Of a stretch of DNA of 64,000 nt, positions 517 to 57,710 are shown in pieces. Numbering within the stretch: position 1 is the stretch's first letter; each line of letters opens with the position of its first letter. A program made the position numbers and the translations under genes. A model generated the notes under the pieces. The model was not told the origin of the DNA. It searched no databases and was given only the letters and a program-made list of their open reading frames with translations. The stretch comes from Rugalucina vietnamica (lineage: Eukaryota; Mollusca; Bivalvia; Lucinida; Lucinidae), in assembly GCA_964017185.1 (NCBI GenBank), contig OZ024872.1, forward strand, positions 40,492,188-40,556,187, in the 5' to 3' direction.

Positions 517-682
517 TAGAAGCCTCCGTAGTGCAGTGGTTATGTCACTCGCCTTGTAAACCAGGGGTCGCAAGTTTGATCCCAGGCTTTTCCAGTCCGT
601 CGGATGGGACTATAAACCGAGGTCCAGTCTCCATTTGACCTTAGCTGTTGGTGGGACGTTAAATCCAAATCAACCAACCAAC
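517..682 (+). mobile_element. tRNA-derived SINE with 12-bp target-site duplication
   Basis: The 5' end looks like a tRNA gene. An A-box-like stretch (GTAGTGCAGTGG) is followed about 35 bases later by a B-box-like stretch (GTCGCAAGTTTGATCCC). An unrelated body follows and ends in a short CAAC-type simple repeat. The flanks carry an identical 12-base duplication, CTTTTAGCTGCG, at 505-516 and 683-694, which is the mark of target-primed retroposition. A second, interrupted member of the same family lies on the minus strand around 23623-27828. The perfect duplication suggests a fairly recent insertion. Confidence 0.85.
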
Positions 683-14300: not shown

Positions 14301-17300
14301 AAAGGGAGTAACAGAACGTTTTAACCAATCCTCGTAAAACTATAAAACCTACAACTGATTAATAAAACGTTCAGCGTTTAATCATGATTTTGATTGTTTA
14401 TTTATCTGAATGGATATCTTAGTGCCTCAAAAGTACCGTAGTATTTTCCAAGCAACAGAAGAAGAGGAAAATGTGTGAACGATAGCAATGGCCAGGAACT
14501 GGTCCACTAAGCACCAAGGCCCAACCCAAAAACTAAATTGGAAAATCCAAAAAGATAATTAGGTACTGATAAAAGCCAGCACATCGCAAGCGGAGTGAAC
14601 AGCTATTTCTTTAAGGGTGGCTACTAAGTTACCTGAACTTAAATAATGTATATGAAAATGCACATTAAAAACACAAACAGCACAAAAATCGACTAAAACT
14701 AAAACGTGAAGCAAATAGAACCACAATAGGAGTCACACTTGGACATGATCAATAAATATACAGTTGCGCAGTTGAAAACAAAAAAAAACTTTTTCGTCCT
14801 CGACGGAGAAAACTAATACACCAGAGTCTAAAACTCGTAAGCGACCAACGAAAACTAAATACGAAATGCAACGCATAATCAAAAGAATATTAAGTAAAAC
14901 TTGTGTCTAAATTACCCCCTTAAGCTTTATGTGTAAATGTAAGAAATGACTTGTAAATGCAAGATAATAACGATTTCCTTGCTTAGAACAAATGAGCCAC
15001 CTCATGGGAAAACCAACAATTTGCATATGCGAAAACAAAGACGCAGATCAGCTTCGCGGTACAATTCCTCTTCTACTTAAATCCAAACTTCTAAGCTTCT
15101 AGCTATTTTCTGTGACTTTACAGGACGGGTTGTGTCGGACCTGTTAGGAAACCACAATATTTGTTTTCCCACGAGGCGGCTCAAATAATTTGAATTGCTC
15201 GATACAGGCTACACACAATATCGTTGCAGTCCCAATTGCAAGACGTTTTTCCTTGGTCAGTTGAGGCTTCAAAACGTGCACAATTAGCTTACTTTTGCGA
15301 ATTTTGACTTGTACATCGAATTTTAATTACATTCCACACCGCATCACAGTAAACATGTTTGTCTTTTCCAGGCTGGTGATCTCCGAATCGCAGGGTTACC
15401 TAGCAACACAGATGTTAATCCATATGTCAAAGCATTCCTGGTCCCAGGAAGGACGTTTAAATATAGAACAAAAACTATCAACAAATCTAGAGTAAGTGAA
15501 TATCTTAGTATTTTTCTTATTGTTTACTTGTATCCTTCTAACATGTTTAAAGGAGAGGGTGCTCGTTTGGGTTCAATCTTCAGCATCTTTGTCATTTTAT
15601 TGTTGCGTCGGAGTTGTTTCATTTATGTTTTAGGACACCATGTTTAAAACAGCTGATAGATTTGAAAGATCATGCAAATATTAAATTTGATCTTTATGGA
15701 AAATAGAAACTATTTGTCAGGTCAATGCTGTCAATCGGTGCCGATTATGTACAATGTATGTACTAAGGAGAAATACCAATAATACTAATTAGACTGGAAA
15801 AGGTGTTCACTATTGCGTGCAACTGCTGTAATTCATCTTAGGATATTTAAATATTTTTTTAAAAAAAGTAAGTAAAAAGTTGCTATAATTTTGTCTAATT
15901 GTTTTGTAGACACCAGTATTTTTGGAGAAATTCGCAATACAAGATATAACCAGAGAATCTGTTACGGAGGAATCGGCTCTAGAATTCCAAGTGTACTCAT
16001 CACATCACATGACCCGTCGCCATCTTGTTGGTATGGCGTCCATATTTCTGAAAGATGTTGATAAATTTGAAAATGGTCTTGCTGAATTAGTGATTCTTCC
16101 ACATAGTGTGTACAGGGTGAGTGCTATACCTTTACGCTTGTATTCCCTATTTTTAGAAATGAATAGACAAGGGGAGATAACGTGGGTTGATATAATGATT
16201 AAATTACAATCGCGAAAAAATCTACAAATCTACCAAAAATCATTATGTTATCGTGTTAATTAACATTTCTGATAGCTGTAAACATTCAAATACAAAAATA
16301 CAATGCTCAAAATATTTAAAGGAACACTGCACTGTTTTACATATATTGCAGTATACTGTATAGTACTCCAACTTTGACCTGATTTTAAAAGCATGCCCGG
16401 AAGACACCGGTTTCGCACAATTTGAATGATTCCTCGAAGTGTCTGATTACAGGACATATTTAAATGCAGATACTGCCCTGTTAATTAAGGTCCATGGGGC
16501 GTTCTTCGTATTTTGTTAAAAATGTGATTTTTGGCATTTTTCTGAAAGCCTACAGACAAGAGGACTTTAAGTGATTCTGATCTTCCTGTTAAATCAATTT
16601 TTAAATGCATTCTGGTGAATAATGACAGTGCCTGATTCAATGTTCCTTGCAACGGTCATGTTTGATGTTATTTTGGAAAAAAGACCATTTTTTGACAAAA
16701 TTGAAATTTTACTAATTGGCTCCAAGGACCGTGACTTGAAGCAGGACATTTTCCCTGACAAATTTACAATAGAAAGAAAATGATTAAAAGGTAGCGGAGA
16801 TCATGCTGGAGCCTATTTTGAAAAAAAAATGCTTATGACCACTTTTCACAAAACATGTTCCATGGACTGAAAAATTGCATTTCTCCACGTTACTACGAAA
16901 ATTATGAAAAAGACACAGACATCCTGAATCTTTGTGTGCTTGGGGACATATATATAACACCGTTCCTTTAAATTTTTTGGGCATTGTAGTTTACCAGTTA
17001 GACGAATACTTTACAAATTTTACTTAAAATATAAATCGTTCATAGATCTGTGAAAACCGTTATAAACAAAGACTATCGACTCGCCCGTGTTTTAGGGGTT
17101 ATAGATATGACGTATTTACTGCAAACTTTTAGATATTATTGCTTATTTCAATGTGCAACGCTATCCCAAGTTTTAGAGTTCGCCTTTACTGATTGCATTT
17201 ATTTACCGTTATTTACCTGTTCGTGCGAAAAATGGTATAGTCTTATTACCATGTATCTATGAATTGACTGTAAGTAAATGTTTGAAAGCAAAATAATATA

Positions 17301-23506: not shown

Positions 23507-25157
23507 TAATAGTTAGTGGCATGATGGATGGATGTTACGGCGAACGTGTCATAGCAATTCTCTATCCACCTCTTCTGTGACTGTGAAGCCTGAATTGTGC
23601 CGGACCAGTCCGGAAATTAATTTTGGTTGGTTGATTTGGGGTTTAACGCCCCACCAACAGCTAAGGTCATATGAGCCTGTCCGTGAGAAAAGGTACAAGT
23701 TGGCACAAATCCTAATTTTCTGGAAAATTCATTTAAAAAAATTTAATGTCATTTATTGGTCATATATTTATCAAAACTACCTTTCAGCCTTTGAAATTAA
23801 TTCGCATTGATGCAAATATTGTTCAGCATATCAATCTGAGTGATATTAGGTCTGTTACTAATAGCAACACAAGATCATTTGTGTTGCCATGGCAACCAGT
23901 AGCACAATTTTAGAAGTGAAATCGCAAGTAGTAAACTGTGATATCTATACTTGTACTTAATGTATTTTCTTAAAAATAGTATCAAATAAAAGGTCAGTGA
24001 ATGCCCTTTATTATTTTGATAGTAGCGTTGAATTAGCTCATTTGCATATTCATGAATATTCATTAATAATCCATTTTTATTTAACTTTTTCCATATTATT
24101 TTGACTTTAGACTTAAAGGCAATGTCAAATACAAGGCGTCAGTACTTAAATACCAGCTATAAATATTTTAGAACATTGTCCATTGCAAAATACAAGAAAA
24201 TCAAGACAGGTAATATACCATATTTAAAGAATTATGTTTCCATGGTAACCAATGTATCCAAGACAGAGCTGACATAGCAAATGATTATTCAACCATAACT
24301 TACTTAATACTCAACTCACTTTAGCAAAACTGGTGTCGGATTAAAGAGAATAAATTTTCTATATCATTATATCACCATAAAGAAATAAACTCATTTGCAT
24401 AATGATGAATATTCATTGAAATATAGCACTTTTACCATTTTAGTCATGAGTTGAACATAAATATTATTAAAATGCAAAAATCATACCAAAATGTTATAGG
24501 TAATCGTCTAAATACCTTAGATGTAAAAGTTGATTATGATGCAAAACACGAGTAAGTATATTTGTGTTAGCAGTGTTAAAGCATTTCTGTTTCCATGGCA
24601 ACCAATGTTTCATAAGACGTGCTGACGATACAAACGGCTACTTGCTATTGTCATTATTTCACTTTGTATTACAAAGCAGATACAATATCACATTTTAATG
24701 AGTGTTTTTTTTCAATAGACTATCCAAATAAGTGAACTTACTGTTTCCTGAATTTTCAAAGACAAACATTTTATCTTTAATTCCTATGTATATGTGTATA
24801 GATACTACGGCATCCTTATCTCTGAGTATTATATGCTGTTATGTGTGCAAGTGAGTATGTAAATTTAAAATTAAAGCAAGACATCAAACTCCCACAACAC
24901 AAATTTGTATAAGTCATACGCACACACCCAAGAACATCTTACCTTGTTGGGGCATTACACTCAAAATATTCAAATTACAGAGAAATGTATGTAGGGAGAA
25001 ATGCATATACTTGGCTATAATAAAAGGTAGATGACATTCACGAAGCTATGAAATTTTGAAAATCATTGCCAGAGGGGCATGGCAACCATGTCTGTAACTG
25101 ATACCTTTTCACACCAGATTATGACAAGATGTGTTTTATAAATGAGCTGATCTAAGC

Positions 25158-25158
<1 letters not shown>

Positions 25159-25204
<46 letters not shown>
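25159..25204. repeat. (AAT)n microsatellite
   Basis: About 15 perfect copies of AAT inside the 4-kb element. Confidence 0.95.
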
Positions 25205-25206
<2 letters not shown>

Positions 25207-25597
25207 GCAAGACAGTTAATACCAAGATAAGACCTAGCCGATCCTGATCTATATACATGTCTGTTGATGCACAAACCTAACATAGATTTGCAAACATTCA
25301 GAAAAAAATGTTTTACCGGTTCATCAAATTTCCAAAGTTGTGTTTACTGTCCTTTTTGCTTTTGAAAACAAACATTGGTTGAATTTTCATTTTCGCATAC
25401 AATGTAAGGTGTTGCACCAACATTGAAGTTTTGACGTTTTCTCGGCAACCTAAGTCACACCGTTCTGAGTATCATGTTGTATGCAAGGCAAAGAACTGGA
25501 TTTGTAAATCGTAATTACACCGAAAGAAATGTTTCAGTCAATAAGAAGAAATTTGCATTGTATAAGTGTTGCGAAATGTTCGCGTTTAAGTATACAT

Positions 25598-25975
25598 GTA
25601 CTAAACATTAAGTGGCTATCGTTCAATGCCGTTATATGAAAACATACATACATGTAAGGTGCAAACAGCACAGCAATTAAACACCAAAGCATAAGACAAT
25701 GAGAACCACAAAAGAAGTATCGCCTTGGAACGATCAATAATATAAAATAACGGGGATTAAACCAGTTTCACAGGCCCTGACCTCACCCTCATCCTCTGCA
25801 ATGGTTCACAACATTTAGTTACTTGTTCAGTCCTCATGGTGAATCTCTAACTAGTCAATGAATCATCAAGGACAAACAAATCAATTATGATAACCACCAT
25901 GATGAATCAAAAACGAGGACTCACAGATACAAAAAGCTGACCGGCGATGGAGATCTCTGGGTGCCAAACTACATC
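25598..25975 (+). repeat. Dispersed repeat copy (43.6-44.3 kb family)
   Basis: It shares 'gaagtatcgccttgg', 'cctcatcctctgcaatggtt', 'ggtgaatctctaa' and 'catcaaggacaaacaa' with 43825-44030. It is embedded in the 4-kb element, either captured or nested there. Confidence 0.75.
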
Positions 25976-28177
25976 ACTGAAAATCTGAAGTTGCATTTTA
26001 ATTTGTCAATTTTAATACATTATATCTGCTTTGACATCAATTTGGACCTGAGAAATCACACAACAAAACGAATTGCGACAAATAATGCATGTTACACATA
26101 TAAACACATCTAAACATTTATCAATTATTCGCTTATATATGCAAGAGCACAGGGAATTAAGAAGTATACCAAGCACGCAAAAAAGCAACGCAAGTGATAT
26201 TGGCTTTGTGAAACACCATTCCTTTAGATTCTGGTGCGCATTAGACACTCAACAAAATATATTGCATATAAGCCATATATGTTTGGTTTATATTTCTAAG
26301 AGATTTACACCACATGCAAAGAATAAAAGTCACGTAAAACAAGCACCAAAAAGTGCAAATTTGCCTGGAATTAATGATCAGATTATATGTCTTGCTGACC
26401 TGTGCTACCAGAGTTTTGCATATTAATAATGAAAACCCTAGCCTATTTCTGAGGTCAAGTTGGATTTATCTATCTATTTTTTGGGAGATTATCAATCATC
26501 TCCGTGATAGGAAAAAGTCCAACAAAGTTATAGCCGGCTGGCCTGACATGACCTGATCTGTATCGGTGATGTTTAAGCAGCACCTCGCTATAACATTGAT
26601 TGCCATGGTAATGATGAGATAAAAATAAAACTGAGATGCTTTCAACAATAATGACAATACACATTTTTGCCACAAACCTCCATTAATTCAGTACGACGAA
26701 TGTTCTTCCAGTGCGTTTTGCATGTTCATATAATCTTTTCGTTACTATTTTTACATTTTAGCATTGTGATTTGTGTTAGTTCTTAAAAACATGTATTTGA
26801 ACACTTATATATGAATATTCAAATGAGCTTATTTACATATCGTATTTGCATATCTTGATTTTTGAGAGCATTATTAGCTTAAGTTTGGTATTAGTCTTGT
26901 AACTAAATACTAAGGGTGCTTTAAAATTAGATTACACTGTGGTACATTTACAACTTTCATGAGATTTTATTTTGAATAATGACAATCTAAGGTTACCATG
27001 GCGACAGCCAGGTTAAAAATCTATAAGTTAACCTTGTTGGCGTTGTTGCCTTCTTACTTGAAATAAGTGCTACCATTAGCATCATGTGTGCAGATAAAAT
27101 AAACACAAAAGTGTGCGCTCATGTGATCCAAGTATGATGTCATTTGTCAGAAAAACTGAGGTCGGAAAATCAATTTAATGAATATTAATGACATTACCTT
27201 TATGAATATTCAAATGAGTGTATTTGCATAAACAAAAATATCAACTGTGACAGTGGTGATGCTTGTGCAACTCGCTTTAATTCAATTCAAACGATGCTTA
27301 AGTATTGAACAGACACATAGATACCGATTTTATATCAAAAGTCATACCAATTTCCCAAAATTAACAAGTGTTGCCATGGAAACGATACAATTTCAAATAA
27401 AATTGTCAAATATGTCAATAGCTAATTGGTTCCAGCATTCACCTTGACATTCATAATACATCTTCTATGGTTTCAATGAGATCACTGACACCTGAAACGT
27501 ACTATTTTAAAGTATTCTTAAAAACTCACAAAATATTGTAAAAACATCACCATGGTGATCTCGTATGATGGCGTCATTTACTAGTTATATTGAAAATGTG
27601 GTTATAAAATTACCTAAAAATTAATCTTATGATATTTTACTACTGTTTTATGCAAAAAACTAAATTTTGAATTTTGTGACCAACTTGTACCTTTTCCCAT
27701 GGACAGGCTCATATGGTCACGGGACTTCGGTTTATAGACTTAGTCGACAGACTGGAGAAGCCCGGGATCGAGCCTGCCATCCCTTGTTTACAAGGCGGGT
27801 AACATTACCACTGCGCCACGAGGCTTCTAAAGTCAGAACGGAAATTACTTATTTCTGAATCTTACTCATTTCTGAATTTCTATTGGCTGACATAGCATTA
27901 TCTAATTAAAACTGTTAAAATAAATTGTTATGAATTTGTTATGAACTGTATATAAATGAATTACTTCAGCTGTTAAAATGATATCGTTTGTATGTTTAAA
28001 CTTATACAGAAAGTGTTATCTGATTAAATATTTTAGCTGAAATGTGTGTTTGTATTTTATAGCCTTGAGGTCCAATGGGGTTTGGGTATTGAATTTTGAC
28101 ATACTTCTCCGGTATTTCAGTCAATGTTTTAGTGTTGAGTCCTCGTTTTGCTCCACCACAGTGTTGTATTCTTTGAT

Positions 28178-43609: not shown

Positions 43610-44260
43610 ATGATCAGGAAAAGGCGCACCCACTCCAAAAACCGAGGTGGAAAAAAAACTAAATTGACAATTAGGTACTTATACTTAGAAAACATATCGT
43701 AAGCCGAGTGAGCAGCTATTTCCAAAAAAGCAGCCACTCAGTTACCCGAACATGAATAAAACTATGAAAACGTACATAAGGTTCAAACAGCACAAAAATC
43801 GACTCCAAGACATAAAACAAATGGAACCGCAACTGAAGTATCGCCTTGGGACGATCAGTAATAAAAATAAAAAATAATGGGGGCTTAAACTAGTTTTACA
43901 GGCACCTAACCCTATTACCCTCATCTTCTGCAATGGTTCACAACATTAAGTTAGTTGTTCGGTCCTCGTGGTGAATCTCTAATTAGTCAATGTATCATCA
44001 AGGACAAACAAACAAATAAATCACGATAACCACCTTGATGGATCAAAAACAACGACTCAACAGATTCAGTAAGCTGCCCGACGATGGAGATCCCTGGGCG
44101 CCGAATAACTTACTGAAACCCGGAGCAAAAGAAAAAAAAACACCAGTTGAACATGGTTTTATCGAGCCTCAATTAACTTCGTCGCAGCTTTTAAGGTTTG
44201 CTAGAGTCTGCAAACGGCCAAACTTCTGCACAAGGGGACGCTTCGAAAAATAGTATAAAC
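43610..44260 (+). repeat. Dispersed repeat, longest copy of its family
   Basis: It contains 'gtaagccgagtgagcagcta', 'ggaaccgcaactgaagtatc', 'tggtgaatctctaattagtc' and a 72-codon open frame starting at 44035 (DQKQRLNRFSKLPDDGDPW...). Part of that frame recurs, broken, at 25912-25970, so it may be a remnant of a mobile-element protein or chance. No family is recognised. Confidence 0.6.
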
Positions 44261-48550: not shown

Positions 48551-50132
48551 AACCAGAGGACCAACGGTCCTGTAAACGCTCACCTGAAATCTGATATGTT
48601 AACCAAATATTTATTTAAAAAAATGCCCTTTATGGGGCCCCACCAACCAATCAAAATAAATGATTAGGACAAAAGTCAGCCAAACTGTAGTGGACTACTT
48701 TATAAACATTTCTGCAAAAATAGAATTCAAATATCTGCGATTGGACCAGAAAAAATAGCCAATTTCCACTTTTCCCGTTTTAAGTCAAACGAAACTTCAA
48801 GTTGCCATAGCAACCAGATTTCTTATCCGACTGAAATAAAAAAACACAAATTATGTAGAGACTACTGTCAGGAACATTTATACAAAGTACAGGCTTCATG
48901 CCGTAGACAATTTCTGAAATGTTTTTCGAAATTTTACCCCTTATGTGGCCCAAGCAACCAATCAAAATAAAGGATTAGGAAAAAGGTCACATGAAACATA
49001 GAGATATACTCAATAAATATTTCTGCAAAGACAAAATTCAAATACCTACAATTGGTCCAGAAAAAATAGCTAGTTTCCACTTTTCCCATTATAAGTCTAT
49101 GGAAACCATAGCAACCAGAGTTCTTATCCGACTGGAATAAAAAACACAAATTATGTAGAGGCTACTGTCAGGAACATGTTTACAAAGTATAGGATTCATC
49201 CACTTGACAGTTTCTGAGGAGAAGAGTTTTGAATGTTTTTTGTTTTTTTTTTTGTTTGTTTTTTTTTTTGTTTTGTTTTTTTTTTTTCAAAATTTTGCCC
49301 TTTATGAGTCTCCAGCAACCAATCAAAATACAGGATTAGGACAAAACTCATAAGAAACGTCAAACACTACTCAATAAACATTTCTGCAAAAACAAAATTC
49401 AAATGTCTGCAATTTTAGCGGAAAAATAGTCGATTTCCACTTTGCCCATTATAAGTCTATGGAAACTTTAAGTTGCCATAGCAACCAGAGTTCTTATCCG
49501 CCTGGAATAAAAAACACAAATTATGTAGAGGCCAGGAACATGTATACAAAGTACAGGCTTAATCCCCTTGACAGTTTCTGAAAAAGAAGATTTTTGAATG
49601 TTTTTCGAAATTTTGCCCTATATGGGGCCCCTGCAACCAATCAAAATAAAGGAACATGTCAGGAACATGTATACAAAGTACAGGCTTAATCCCCTTGACA
49701 GTTTCTGAGAAGAAGATTTTTGAATGTTTTTCGAAATTTTGCCCTATATGGGGCCCCTGCAACCAATCAAAATAAAGGATTAGGACAAAAGTCACAGGAA
49801 ATGTAGAGAACTATTCAATAAACATTTCTGCAAAAACAAAATTCAAATATCTCCAACAAGACAGAAAAAACTGGCAATTTTCACTTTTTTCCATTATAAG
49901 TCTATGGGAAGCATAAGTTGCCATAGCAACCAGAGTTCTTATCCGATCAAAACAAAAGAACACAATTATTCTTTCCCCCTACCTGTAGATGGCATATGTG
50001 TAATATGAAAACAATCGGCCCAGCGGTTTCAGAGAAGAAGATCTTGGAAATTGTGGACGACGACGGACGGACGGACGCCGGAGCATGGGTATACTATAAG
50101 CTCATCTATGAGCCTTCGGCTCAGGTGAGCTA
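48551..50132 (+). mobile_element. AGCTCACC-type element with 310-360 bp module array (CCATAGCAACC type)
   Basis: It begins AACCAGAGGACCAACGGTCC and TGTAAACGCTCACCTGA, and ends GAGCCTTCGGCTCAGGTGAG then CTAA. Inside, 'accaatcaaaataaa' recurs at about 48647, 48957, 49317, 49636 and 49762, giving modules of about 310-360 bp plus one of 126 bp. Modules carry 'cattataagtctatgg' and GTTGCCATAGCAACC. The last part reads 'cggcccagcggtttcagaga', then GACGACGGACGG repeats. No open frame, so non-autonomous. Confidence 0.82.
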
Positions 50133-50961
50133 AAAACACAAATTATGTAGAGGCTACTGTCAGGAACATGTATACAAAGTACAGGCTTCACCCCTGTGGC
50201 AGTTTCTGAGGAGAAGAATTTTGAATGTTTTTCTAAATTTTGCCCTGTATAGGGCCCCAACAACCATTCAAAATAAAGGATTAGGACAAAAGTAACAATA
50301 AACGTGGAGCACTACTCAATAAACATTTCTACAAAAACAAAATTCAAATATCTGCAATTGGACCGCAAAAATAGTCAATTTCAACTTTTCCCATTATAAG
50401 TCTATGGACACTTTTAAGTTGCCATAGCAACCAGACTTCTTATCTGTCTGGAATAAAAAACAAAAATTATGTAGAGGCCACTGTCAGGAACATGTATACA
50501 AAGTACATGCTTCACCCTCTTGACAGTTTCTGAGAAGATTTTTGAATGTTTTTTTTTTTTCGAAATTTTGCCCTATATGGGGCCCCTGTAACCAATCAAA
50601 ATGAAGGATTAGGACACAAGTCACATGAAAAGTTGAGGACTTCTCAAAAAACATTTCTGCAAAAACAAAATTCAAATATCTGCAACAAGACAGCAAAAAC
50701 TGGAATTTTTCACTTTTTTCCATTATAAGTCTATGGGAAGCATAAGTTGCCATAGCAACCAGAGTTCTTATCCGATCAAAACAAAAAACGCAATTATCCT
50801 TTCCCCCTACCTATAGATGCTGTATGTGTAATATGAGAACAATCGGCCCAGCGGTTTCAGAGAAGAAGATCTTTGAAAATGTGGACGACGGACGACGCCG
50901 GAGCATGGGTACATGTATACTACATGTATAAGCTCAACTTTGAGCCTTCGGCTCAGGTGAG
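50133..50961 (+). mobile_element. Second, 5'-truncated AGCTCACC-type element in tandem
   Basis: Directly after the CTAA end of the previous element the sequence re-enters the module at 'aaacacaaattatgtagagg', runs two modules (about 328 bp apart) and ends with the same GAGCCTTCGGCTCAGGTGAG then CTAA. The two share the right end but only the first has the left end. Confidence 0.8.
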
Positions 50962-56060: not shown

Positions 56061-56087
56061 ACCAGCTTGATTAGGAAGTTGCATATA

Positions 56088-57710
56088 ACCAGAGGACCAA
56101 TGGTCCTGTAAACGCTCACCTGAGACCTGCTTCATATACCAATAAACATATTTGAATATTATGGTATTTAACAGATGAAGCCCTTGGGCCATTTTCTTTT
56201 TTCAGAATAATCAATACTCTGTCCATTTGTCAATTTCCTGCTGATTTTCCCCTTCAAATAACATTTTAAAAGCAGATGAGCCCCTGGGATTCATTTTTTT
56301 TTTCAGAATCATTAAATTTCAGTCCTACTGCCCTTTCACTTAAAATGACATTGTAAAAGGTTTCCCCATTCAAATGCATTGACGACCTTGCCATAAAATA
56401 AGTCAAGGTCACCACAGGGTCATGTTTTATACATACATTGTAGTACTTTAGTCATCCATACTTCATGCAAAGTTTCGTTGAAATCGGTTCACAGGTTCTG
56501 GAGAAGAAGATATTTTAAGGGTTTTTACCGTATATGGGCATGGCGGCCATCTTGGTCATGTGACCTAGATTATTTATATATACATTGGTTCCCACTTCCT
56601 ATAGATGCTTCATTATATAAAATTTGGCTTTGATTGGCCAAATGGTTTCAGAGAAAAAAATCTTTGAAAAGTGTGTATGGACGACAGACCGGCCAAGGTC
56701 AAGAGATGACCTTGACCTAAATTAATCATATACCTTCATCTAATCCATTAGTTGTTTGCATCTACCACTTTTCAGATCTCAGGCTGCAATATTTTTCAAA
56801 AAATAGCTAATTTCCACTTTTCCCATTATAAGTCTATGGAAACTTAAAGTTACCATAGCAACCAGAGTTCTTATCCGACTGGAATAAAAAAACACAAATT
56901 ATGTAGAGGCTACTGTCAGGAACATGCATAAAAAGTACAGGATTCATCCACTTGACAGTTTCTGAGGAGAAGATTTTTGAATGTTTTTTTCAAAATTTTG
57001 CCCTTTATGGGGCCCCAGCAACCAATCAAAATAAAGGATTAGAACAAAACTCGCAAGAAACATCAAACACTACTCAATAAACATTTCTGCAAAAACAAAA
57101 TTCAAATGTCTGCAATTCTAGCGGAAAAATAGCTGATTTCAACTTTTCCCATTATAAGTCTATGGAAACTTTAAGTTGCCATAGCAACCAGAGTTCTTAT
57201 CCGCCTGGAATAAAAAACATAAATTATGTAGAGGTCACTATCAGGAACATGTATACAAAGTATAGGCTTCATCCCCTTGACAGTTTCTGAGAAGAAGATT
57301 TTTGAATGTTTTTCGAAATTTTGCCCTATATGGGGCCCCTGCAACCAATCAAAATGAAGGATTAGGACAAAAGTCAAATGAAACATAGAGGACTACTCAA
57401 TAAACATTTCTGCAAACACAAAATTCAAATATCTCCAACAAGACAGCAAAAACTGGCAATTTTCACTTTTTTCCATTATAAGTCTATGGGAAGCATAAGT
57501 TGCCATAGCAACCAGAGTCCTTATCCGATCAAAACAAAAAACACAATTATTCTTTCCCCCTACCTGTAGATGGTGTATGTGTAATATGAGAACAATCGGC
57601 CCAGCGGTTTCAGAGAAGAAGATCTTGGAAATTGTGGACGACGACGGACGGATGACGGAGCATGGGTATACTATAAGCTCACCTATGAGCCTTCGGCTCA
57701 GGTGAGCTAA
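56088..57710 (+). mobile_element. AGCTCACC-type element with chimeric interior
   Basis: The ends are AACCAGAGGACCAATGGTCC and GAGCCTTCGGCTCAGGTGAG then CTAA. About 56160-56730 consists of the GACCTTGACC-type modules seen at 35864 and 52372. From about 56780 to 57545 it switches to CCATAGCAACC-type modules as at 48551. It ends with the GACGACGGACGG stretch. Confidence 0.82.

Follow-up and report, generated by a model that had tools for sequence, protein, structure and literature searches.

A recently mobile transposon family with slowly diverging arm motifs and no recognised transposase gene in the bivalve Rugalucina vietnamica

Arrays of internal repeats, set in opposed orientation within inverted arms, are a feature of Foldback/Galileo-type elements, and the target duplication of Galileo is 7 bp long. 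A different point of comparison is offered by the Sola2 elements of dictyostelids, which combine short terminal inverted repeats (TIRs) with AT-rich 4-bp target duplications of the form AWWT (ATAT, AAAT, ATTT), with no mention of arm arrays in the portions of that report available to us (PMC3627910). From bivalves, Sola1-3 transposases have been reported (PMC10294476). The element described here interrupts a SINE in a 64,000-nucleotide stretch of the Rugalucina vietnamica genome (the window, to which all unprefixed coordinates refer). It resembles the Foldback/Galileo-type elements in its opposed arrays, but its arms are strongly diverged, only short motifs being conserved, and its duplication is 4 bp and not 7 bp. 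It resembles Sola2 in its short TIRs and in its duplication, which is of the AWWT type and identical on both sides in 15 of 18 copies, and differs from what the available text records of Sola2 in having arm arrays. ‘Sola2-like’ is used below as a lead and not as a statement of membership, as it rests on the published duplication pattern and not on a transposase comparison. The element is real and ordinary in kind, its duplication having been misread in the original prediction; its notable features are arm motifs that evolve slowly and the transposase role that is suggested for the Pfam domain DUF7869.

The insertion is confirmed by its host SINE (Table 1). The SINE remnants on either side join in order, as had been predicted, and the rejoined SINE matches a second copy at 517-681(-) without a break (83% over 166 columns); at the insertion site the unbroken copy reads AAGGTCAAATGG and the filled site AAGGTCATATGG. 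The element has the form 5'-GAGCCTGTCC...GGACAGGCTC-3'. Among 20 further copies, picked by left-arm similarity and read, the left end falls on the same base in all 20 and the right end is also shared by 17, while L018, L022 and L027 show no right end within the stretch read. The description of a DNA-transposon-like element with exact ends is upheld, its length being corrected from 4,036 to 4,038 bp. TIRs, put at about 38 bp in the original prediction, are indeed present (36 nucleotides if CATATG is included, 94% complementary), but strictly defined they measure about 31 bp. That there is no recognised transposase also held: 30 of the 42 stop-to-stop frames, scanned against Pfam with the exclusion of nine that run into the flanks or ends and three of an AAT repeat, gave no transposase-like match (best E 0.0059), and none was recognised in the fetched copies, whose large frames sit in flanks or nested inserts. 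The dispersed repeat inside the element has further family members in the window at 7028-6917, 216-148 and 14674-14760.

Table 1. Features of the interrupted SINE and of the element within the window
Feature	Position	Strand	Basis or remark
SINE, part left of insertion	23623..23668		alignment to SINE copy 517-681
Left copy of 4-bp target duplication ATAT	23669..23672		flank analysis across copies
Complete non-autonomous element, 4,038 bp	23673..27710	+	ends common to 17/20 fetched copies, left end 20/20; flank analysis
Left TIR GAGCCTGTCCGTGAGAAAAGGTACAAGTTGG	23673..23703	+	genome TIR matches; substitution rate 0.7% in 24 copies
Palindrome GTTGCCATGGCAAC (X-box-like), left arm 1	23883..23896		motif scan, conservation
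ATTTGCAT + TGAATATTCA block, left arm	24037..24064	+	motif scan, conservation
X-box-like palindrome, 2 mismatches, left arm 2	24236..24249		motif scan, conservation
ATTTGCAT + TGAATATTCA block, left arm	24390..24417	+	motif scan, conservation
X-box-like palindrome, 1 mismatch, left arm 3	24589..24602		motif scan, conservation
Dispersed repeat inside element	25635..25982		also 43763-44118 (80%), fragments elsewhere in window
X-box-like palindrome, 3 mismatches, right arm 3	26599..26612		not individually conserved, 23rd percentile
Similar block, inverted, right arm	26810..26839	-	motif scan, conservation
X-box-like palindrome, 2 mismatches, right arm 2	26992..27005		not individually conserved, 33rd percentile
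Similar block, inverted, right arm	27201..27230	-	motif scan, conservation
X-box-like palindrome, 1 mismatch, right arm 1	27370..27383		motif scan, conservation
Right TIR, two mismatches vs left	27680..27710	-	genome TIR matches; rate 1.4% in 24 copies
Right copy of 4-bp target duplication ATAT	27711..27714		flank analysis across copies
SINE, part right of insertion	27715..27829		alignment to SINE copy 517-681

The element is no lone oddity. In the genome surveyed (1.09 Gb in 47 contigs) a left-arm query gave 40 scored matches, the window's own included, from 67 candidates, and a genome search for the TIR, which the original prediction had proposed, returned 125 matches to the 31-base sequence with up to three mismatches (62 + 63), against none in a reversed control. 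The 100 of these 125 that were listed form at least 36 convergent pairs, of which 23 measure 3.86-4.29 kb and four span 17.7-37 kb; 28 ends are unpaired, some only because the partner lies outside the listing. Divergence from the window copy ranges from 2% to 14% among the 24 copies compared. Two copies, L010 and L011, differ by no substitution and nine gap positions over 4,057 columns, although each lies on its own contig and neither flanks nor duplications agree between them, and thus the family has moved recently. At L032 the sequence reads N from about 2.1 kb on, so that its right part is out of view. A further locus (L029:246-7001, G000:C10) has a TIR with two mismatches and no 4-kb element behind it; its neighbouring frames, by inspection, resemble host-gene exons (RRM-like, MIB/HERC2-like), and the TIR is possibly a capture or a chance neighbour.

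The length of the target duplication follows from comparing the copies. The window copy alone is compatible with a duplication of TA, ATAT or CATATG, because CATATG is palindromic. When the duplications were tabulated, as had been recommended, 15 of the 18 two-ended copies, the window included, proved to have an identical 4-bp AWWT duplication (ATAT 8, AAAT 3, AATT 3, ATTT 1), and AWWT occupies all 21 left and all 18 right flanks of the flank table. Shuffling the flank pairs 20,000 times gave a mean of 6.06 identical pairs and a largest value of 14, against the 15 observed. The other three copies (L012, L013, L017) have unequal flanking 4-mers, both nevertheless AWWT, perhaps through recombination between copies. 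Among the variant-TIR loci outside the flank table the left flank is AWWT in five of six, the decayed L033 having ACTT. Given a 4-bp duplication, the first base of the element is the G at 23673 and its last the C at 27710, and the appearance of CATATG arises because the flanking C and G happen to match the element's terminal C and G. The 6-bp duplication originally proposed fits 2 of the 18 copies, where about 1 in 16 would be expected by chance, and with it falls the statement that the element matches no family that could be named, which had rested on that duplication. In principle the duplication could still be one of 2 bp inside a fixed A..T target, the A and T being constant in the AWWT targets.

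Duplications of 6 bp are stated for Polinton, IS3EU and GingerRoot (PMC10045372), and the window copy, with CATATG on both sides, would by itself suggest a Polinton-like, an IS3EU/GingerRoot-like or a new superfamily with such a duplication. Set against the two fitting copies and the lack of TA..TA ends in any copy of the flank table, this assignment is scarcely credible. Polinton/Maverick, which requires 6 bp, was rejected on the duplication count, as was IS3EU/GingerRoot, which combines 6 bp with TA..TA (occasionally TG..CA) ends; piggyBac/Kolobok was rejected since its TTAA duplication occurs nowhere among the flanks tabulated. If the element were of Tc1/mariner type, duplicating 2 bp (TA) and having the TIR TGAGCC, this would account for the eight of 15 matching duplications that are ATAT, the window copy among them, but the remaining seven (AAAT, AATT, ATTT) have no central TA, and the gene at the TIR-sharing locus L030, described below, belongs to a DUF7869-related family; we regard this assignment as very unlikely.

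The prediction of opposed subterminal arrays was sound. Each arm holds three X-box-like palindromes (GTTGCCATGGCAAC with 0-3 mismatches) and two TGAATATTCA blocks near a ATTTGCAT octamer, the order of one arm mirroring that of the other. The 353-bp modules that had been described at both ends apply to the left arm, where palindromes at 23883, 24236 and 24589 keep that period, but not to the right, where the spacings are 393 and 378 bp. The left modules are 61% identical over 187 columns, and the likeness of arm to arm is confined to short blocks. The window contains 18 X-box-like palindromes against 2.3 expected, six of them within the element. Satellite-like arrays with GTTGCCATAGCAAC lie at 48600-50800 and 56087-57550, with a period of about 325 bp in places, and the repeat that composes them recurs 3' of a DUF7869-related gene piece (L039:1928-3255).

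As a set, these motifs diverge slowly. Over 24 copies, 1.5% of positions vary in the six palindromes and 3.6% in the TGAATATTCA blocks (p 0.012), whereas stretches drawn at random from the arms vary at 6.3%, with none of 5,000 random sets as low as the palindromes. Here and in the tests that follow the copies are related, and the statistics count sites, not independent events. By a majority-base measure 1 of 20,000 sets of arm 14-mers was as low as the palindromes, and 0 of 20,000 when the 14-mers were G+C-rich. Individually, four of the six palindromes fall in the lowest 2% and two of the right arm do not. When all 14-mers between the ends are ranked, those of TGAATATTCA and the palindromes lead the list, interspersed with a few further sequences that include TGATGGCGTCATTT; the latter, at 27566-27579 in the right arm, is highly conserved and looks ATF/CRE-like. 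Because the palindromes diverge so much less than the arms around them, they are, as judged from sequence comparison, probably functional.

The X-box is the consensus site of RFX factors and ATTTGCAT the consensus site of POU factors, and the arrays could be transcription-factor sites, as an enhancer or a non-coding-RNA promoter, with no part in transposition, their slow divergence reflecting selection on expression or low mutability. This proposal is restricted to the arms and does not conflict with the element being a transposon; it gains from L030, which has nearly the same TIR and no array. It loses from the lack of a recognisable gene in the element whose expression such sites could serve, and from G+C-matched 14-mers, in which the low rate is not seen (0 of 20,000 sets). 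We give it appreciable weight while holding it to be the less probable account. A stronger version of a role in transposition, in which the mirror arrays are required cis parts, bound by the transposase or by host RFX/POU-type factors so as to join the ends or open chromatin, is in our view rather unlikely. The palindrome array is absent from L030 and from the gene-bearing loci, where single partial palindromes were found, the exception being one good site in the satellite-like repeat of L039; the RFX DNA-binding domain gave a sub-threshold match in three of ten scanned relatives of the transposase-like gene, that of L036 falling below the cut-off. If true, this stronger version would mean that a transposon exploits the site recognition of an established family of transcription factors, and might hint at the origin of the RFX DNA-binding domain.

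The search for a coding partner, which the original prediction had advised, covered six variant-TIR loci and succeeded in part, yielding one decayed locus and, among the TIR matches listed, no intact gene with the exact TIR. At that locus, L030, the TIR is two mismatches off (29/31), the left flank is ATAT, and a transposase-like gene lies in decayed pieces starting 0.7-1.0 kb inside the TIR; beyond the TIR there is no similarity to the 4-kb element, and no right TIR appears within the 7 kb read. Counting its own locus, the gene piece has 43 matches genome-wide, long open frames being present at several of them, and Pfam DUF7869 was matched at L044 (E 3e-16) and L043 (E 1.1e-12). A subfamily (L040-L042) has the 5' end GATGCGCAACGCGAGAAAAGG, and TIRs of this type occur 12 times in the genome, five convergent pairs bracketing relatives of the L030 gene. 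These pairs span 4.8, 5.2, 6.8, 7.6 and 15.2 kb, and all five have identical 4-bp flanks (ATGT, ATAT, ATAT, ATAT, AAAT). One of the five bracketed relatives is confirmed as DUF7869, at the cut-off: in the C3 coding element the frame downstream of the first exon scores 26.2 against 26 bits. One full-text search, limited to the literature available, returned no paper that mentions DUF7869 by name. Since DUF7869-type genes thus lie inside TIR elements with 4-bp duplications, a transposase role for these proteins is suggested.

These DUF7869-gene transposons (C3:81290891-81295690 and four others) are like the element in their 4-bp A..T duplications (5/5) and in their convergent TIRs, which start with GA and have GAGAAAAGG at the same offset. 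Between the element's TIR and the GATGCGCAACGCGAGAAAAGG TIR, 16 of 31 places are equal, and nine consecutive bases match in register (28 of 200,000 shuffles); the layout GA...GAGAAAAGG is common to both. The DUF7869-gene transposons are unlike the element in carrying a transposase-like gene, in the remainder of the TIR and, at L040-L042, in showing single partial palindromes and no array in the roughly 3.3 kb read of each. Among the 100 of 125 TIR matches listed, no intact transposase gene accompanies the element's exact GAGCCTGTCCGTGAGAAAAGG TIR, and two of the 56 places of the gene family lie within 25 kb of a TIR, namely L030 and C10:42510465. The latter gene sits outside its neighbouring element, and of the 56 only L030 is inside a listed TIR. 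Alternatively, a transposase from a different superfamily might mobilise the element, L030 being an accident in which a TIR end came to lie next to an old DUF7869-type gene. In favour of this, a single TIR was seen in the 7 kb read at L030, where the gene is decayed. Against it, the gene pieces of L030 begin 0.7-1.0 kb inside the TIR, and relatives of the gene are enclosed by TIRs that have the same layout and offset, with a duplication of equal length; we consider this account improbable.

The best reading, and the simplest, is that the element is a non-autonomous member of the DUF7869-gene (‘Sola2-like’) transposon group. It is likely a cut-and-paste DNA transposon moved by a DUF7869-type transposase made elsewhere in the genome, with arm motifs that act in cis. 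Such a transposase would recognise the TIR through the shared layout, excise the element and join it to an AT-rich target with a 4-bp stagger, leaving the AWWT duplication; its source would now be absent, decayed or outside the matches listed. The two arms probably derive from a single repeat array, of which they are inverted copies, now old and decayed, in which the palindromes and TGAATATTCA blocks were retained while the rest drifted. Since the motifs were kept as their surroundings changed, their most likely role is a cis-acting one in mobilisation, as accessory binding sites for the transposase or a host factor.

What was a one-off puzzle thus becomes a defined, recently mobile family. 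A Pfam domain, DUF7869, is linked to elements that have TIRs and 4-bp duplications, a link that points to its being part of a transposase, and the motif arrays offer a testable case of a non-autonomous element that keeps candidate internal binding sites besides its TIRs.
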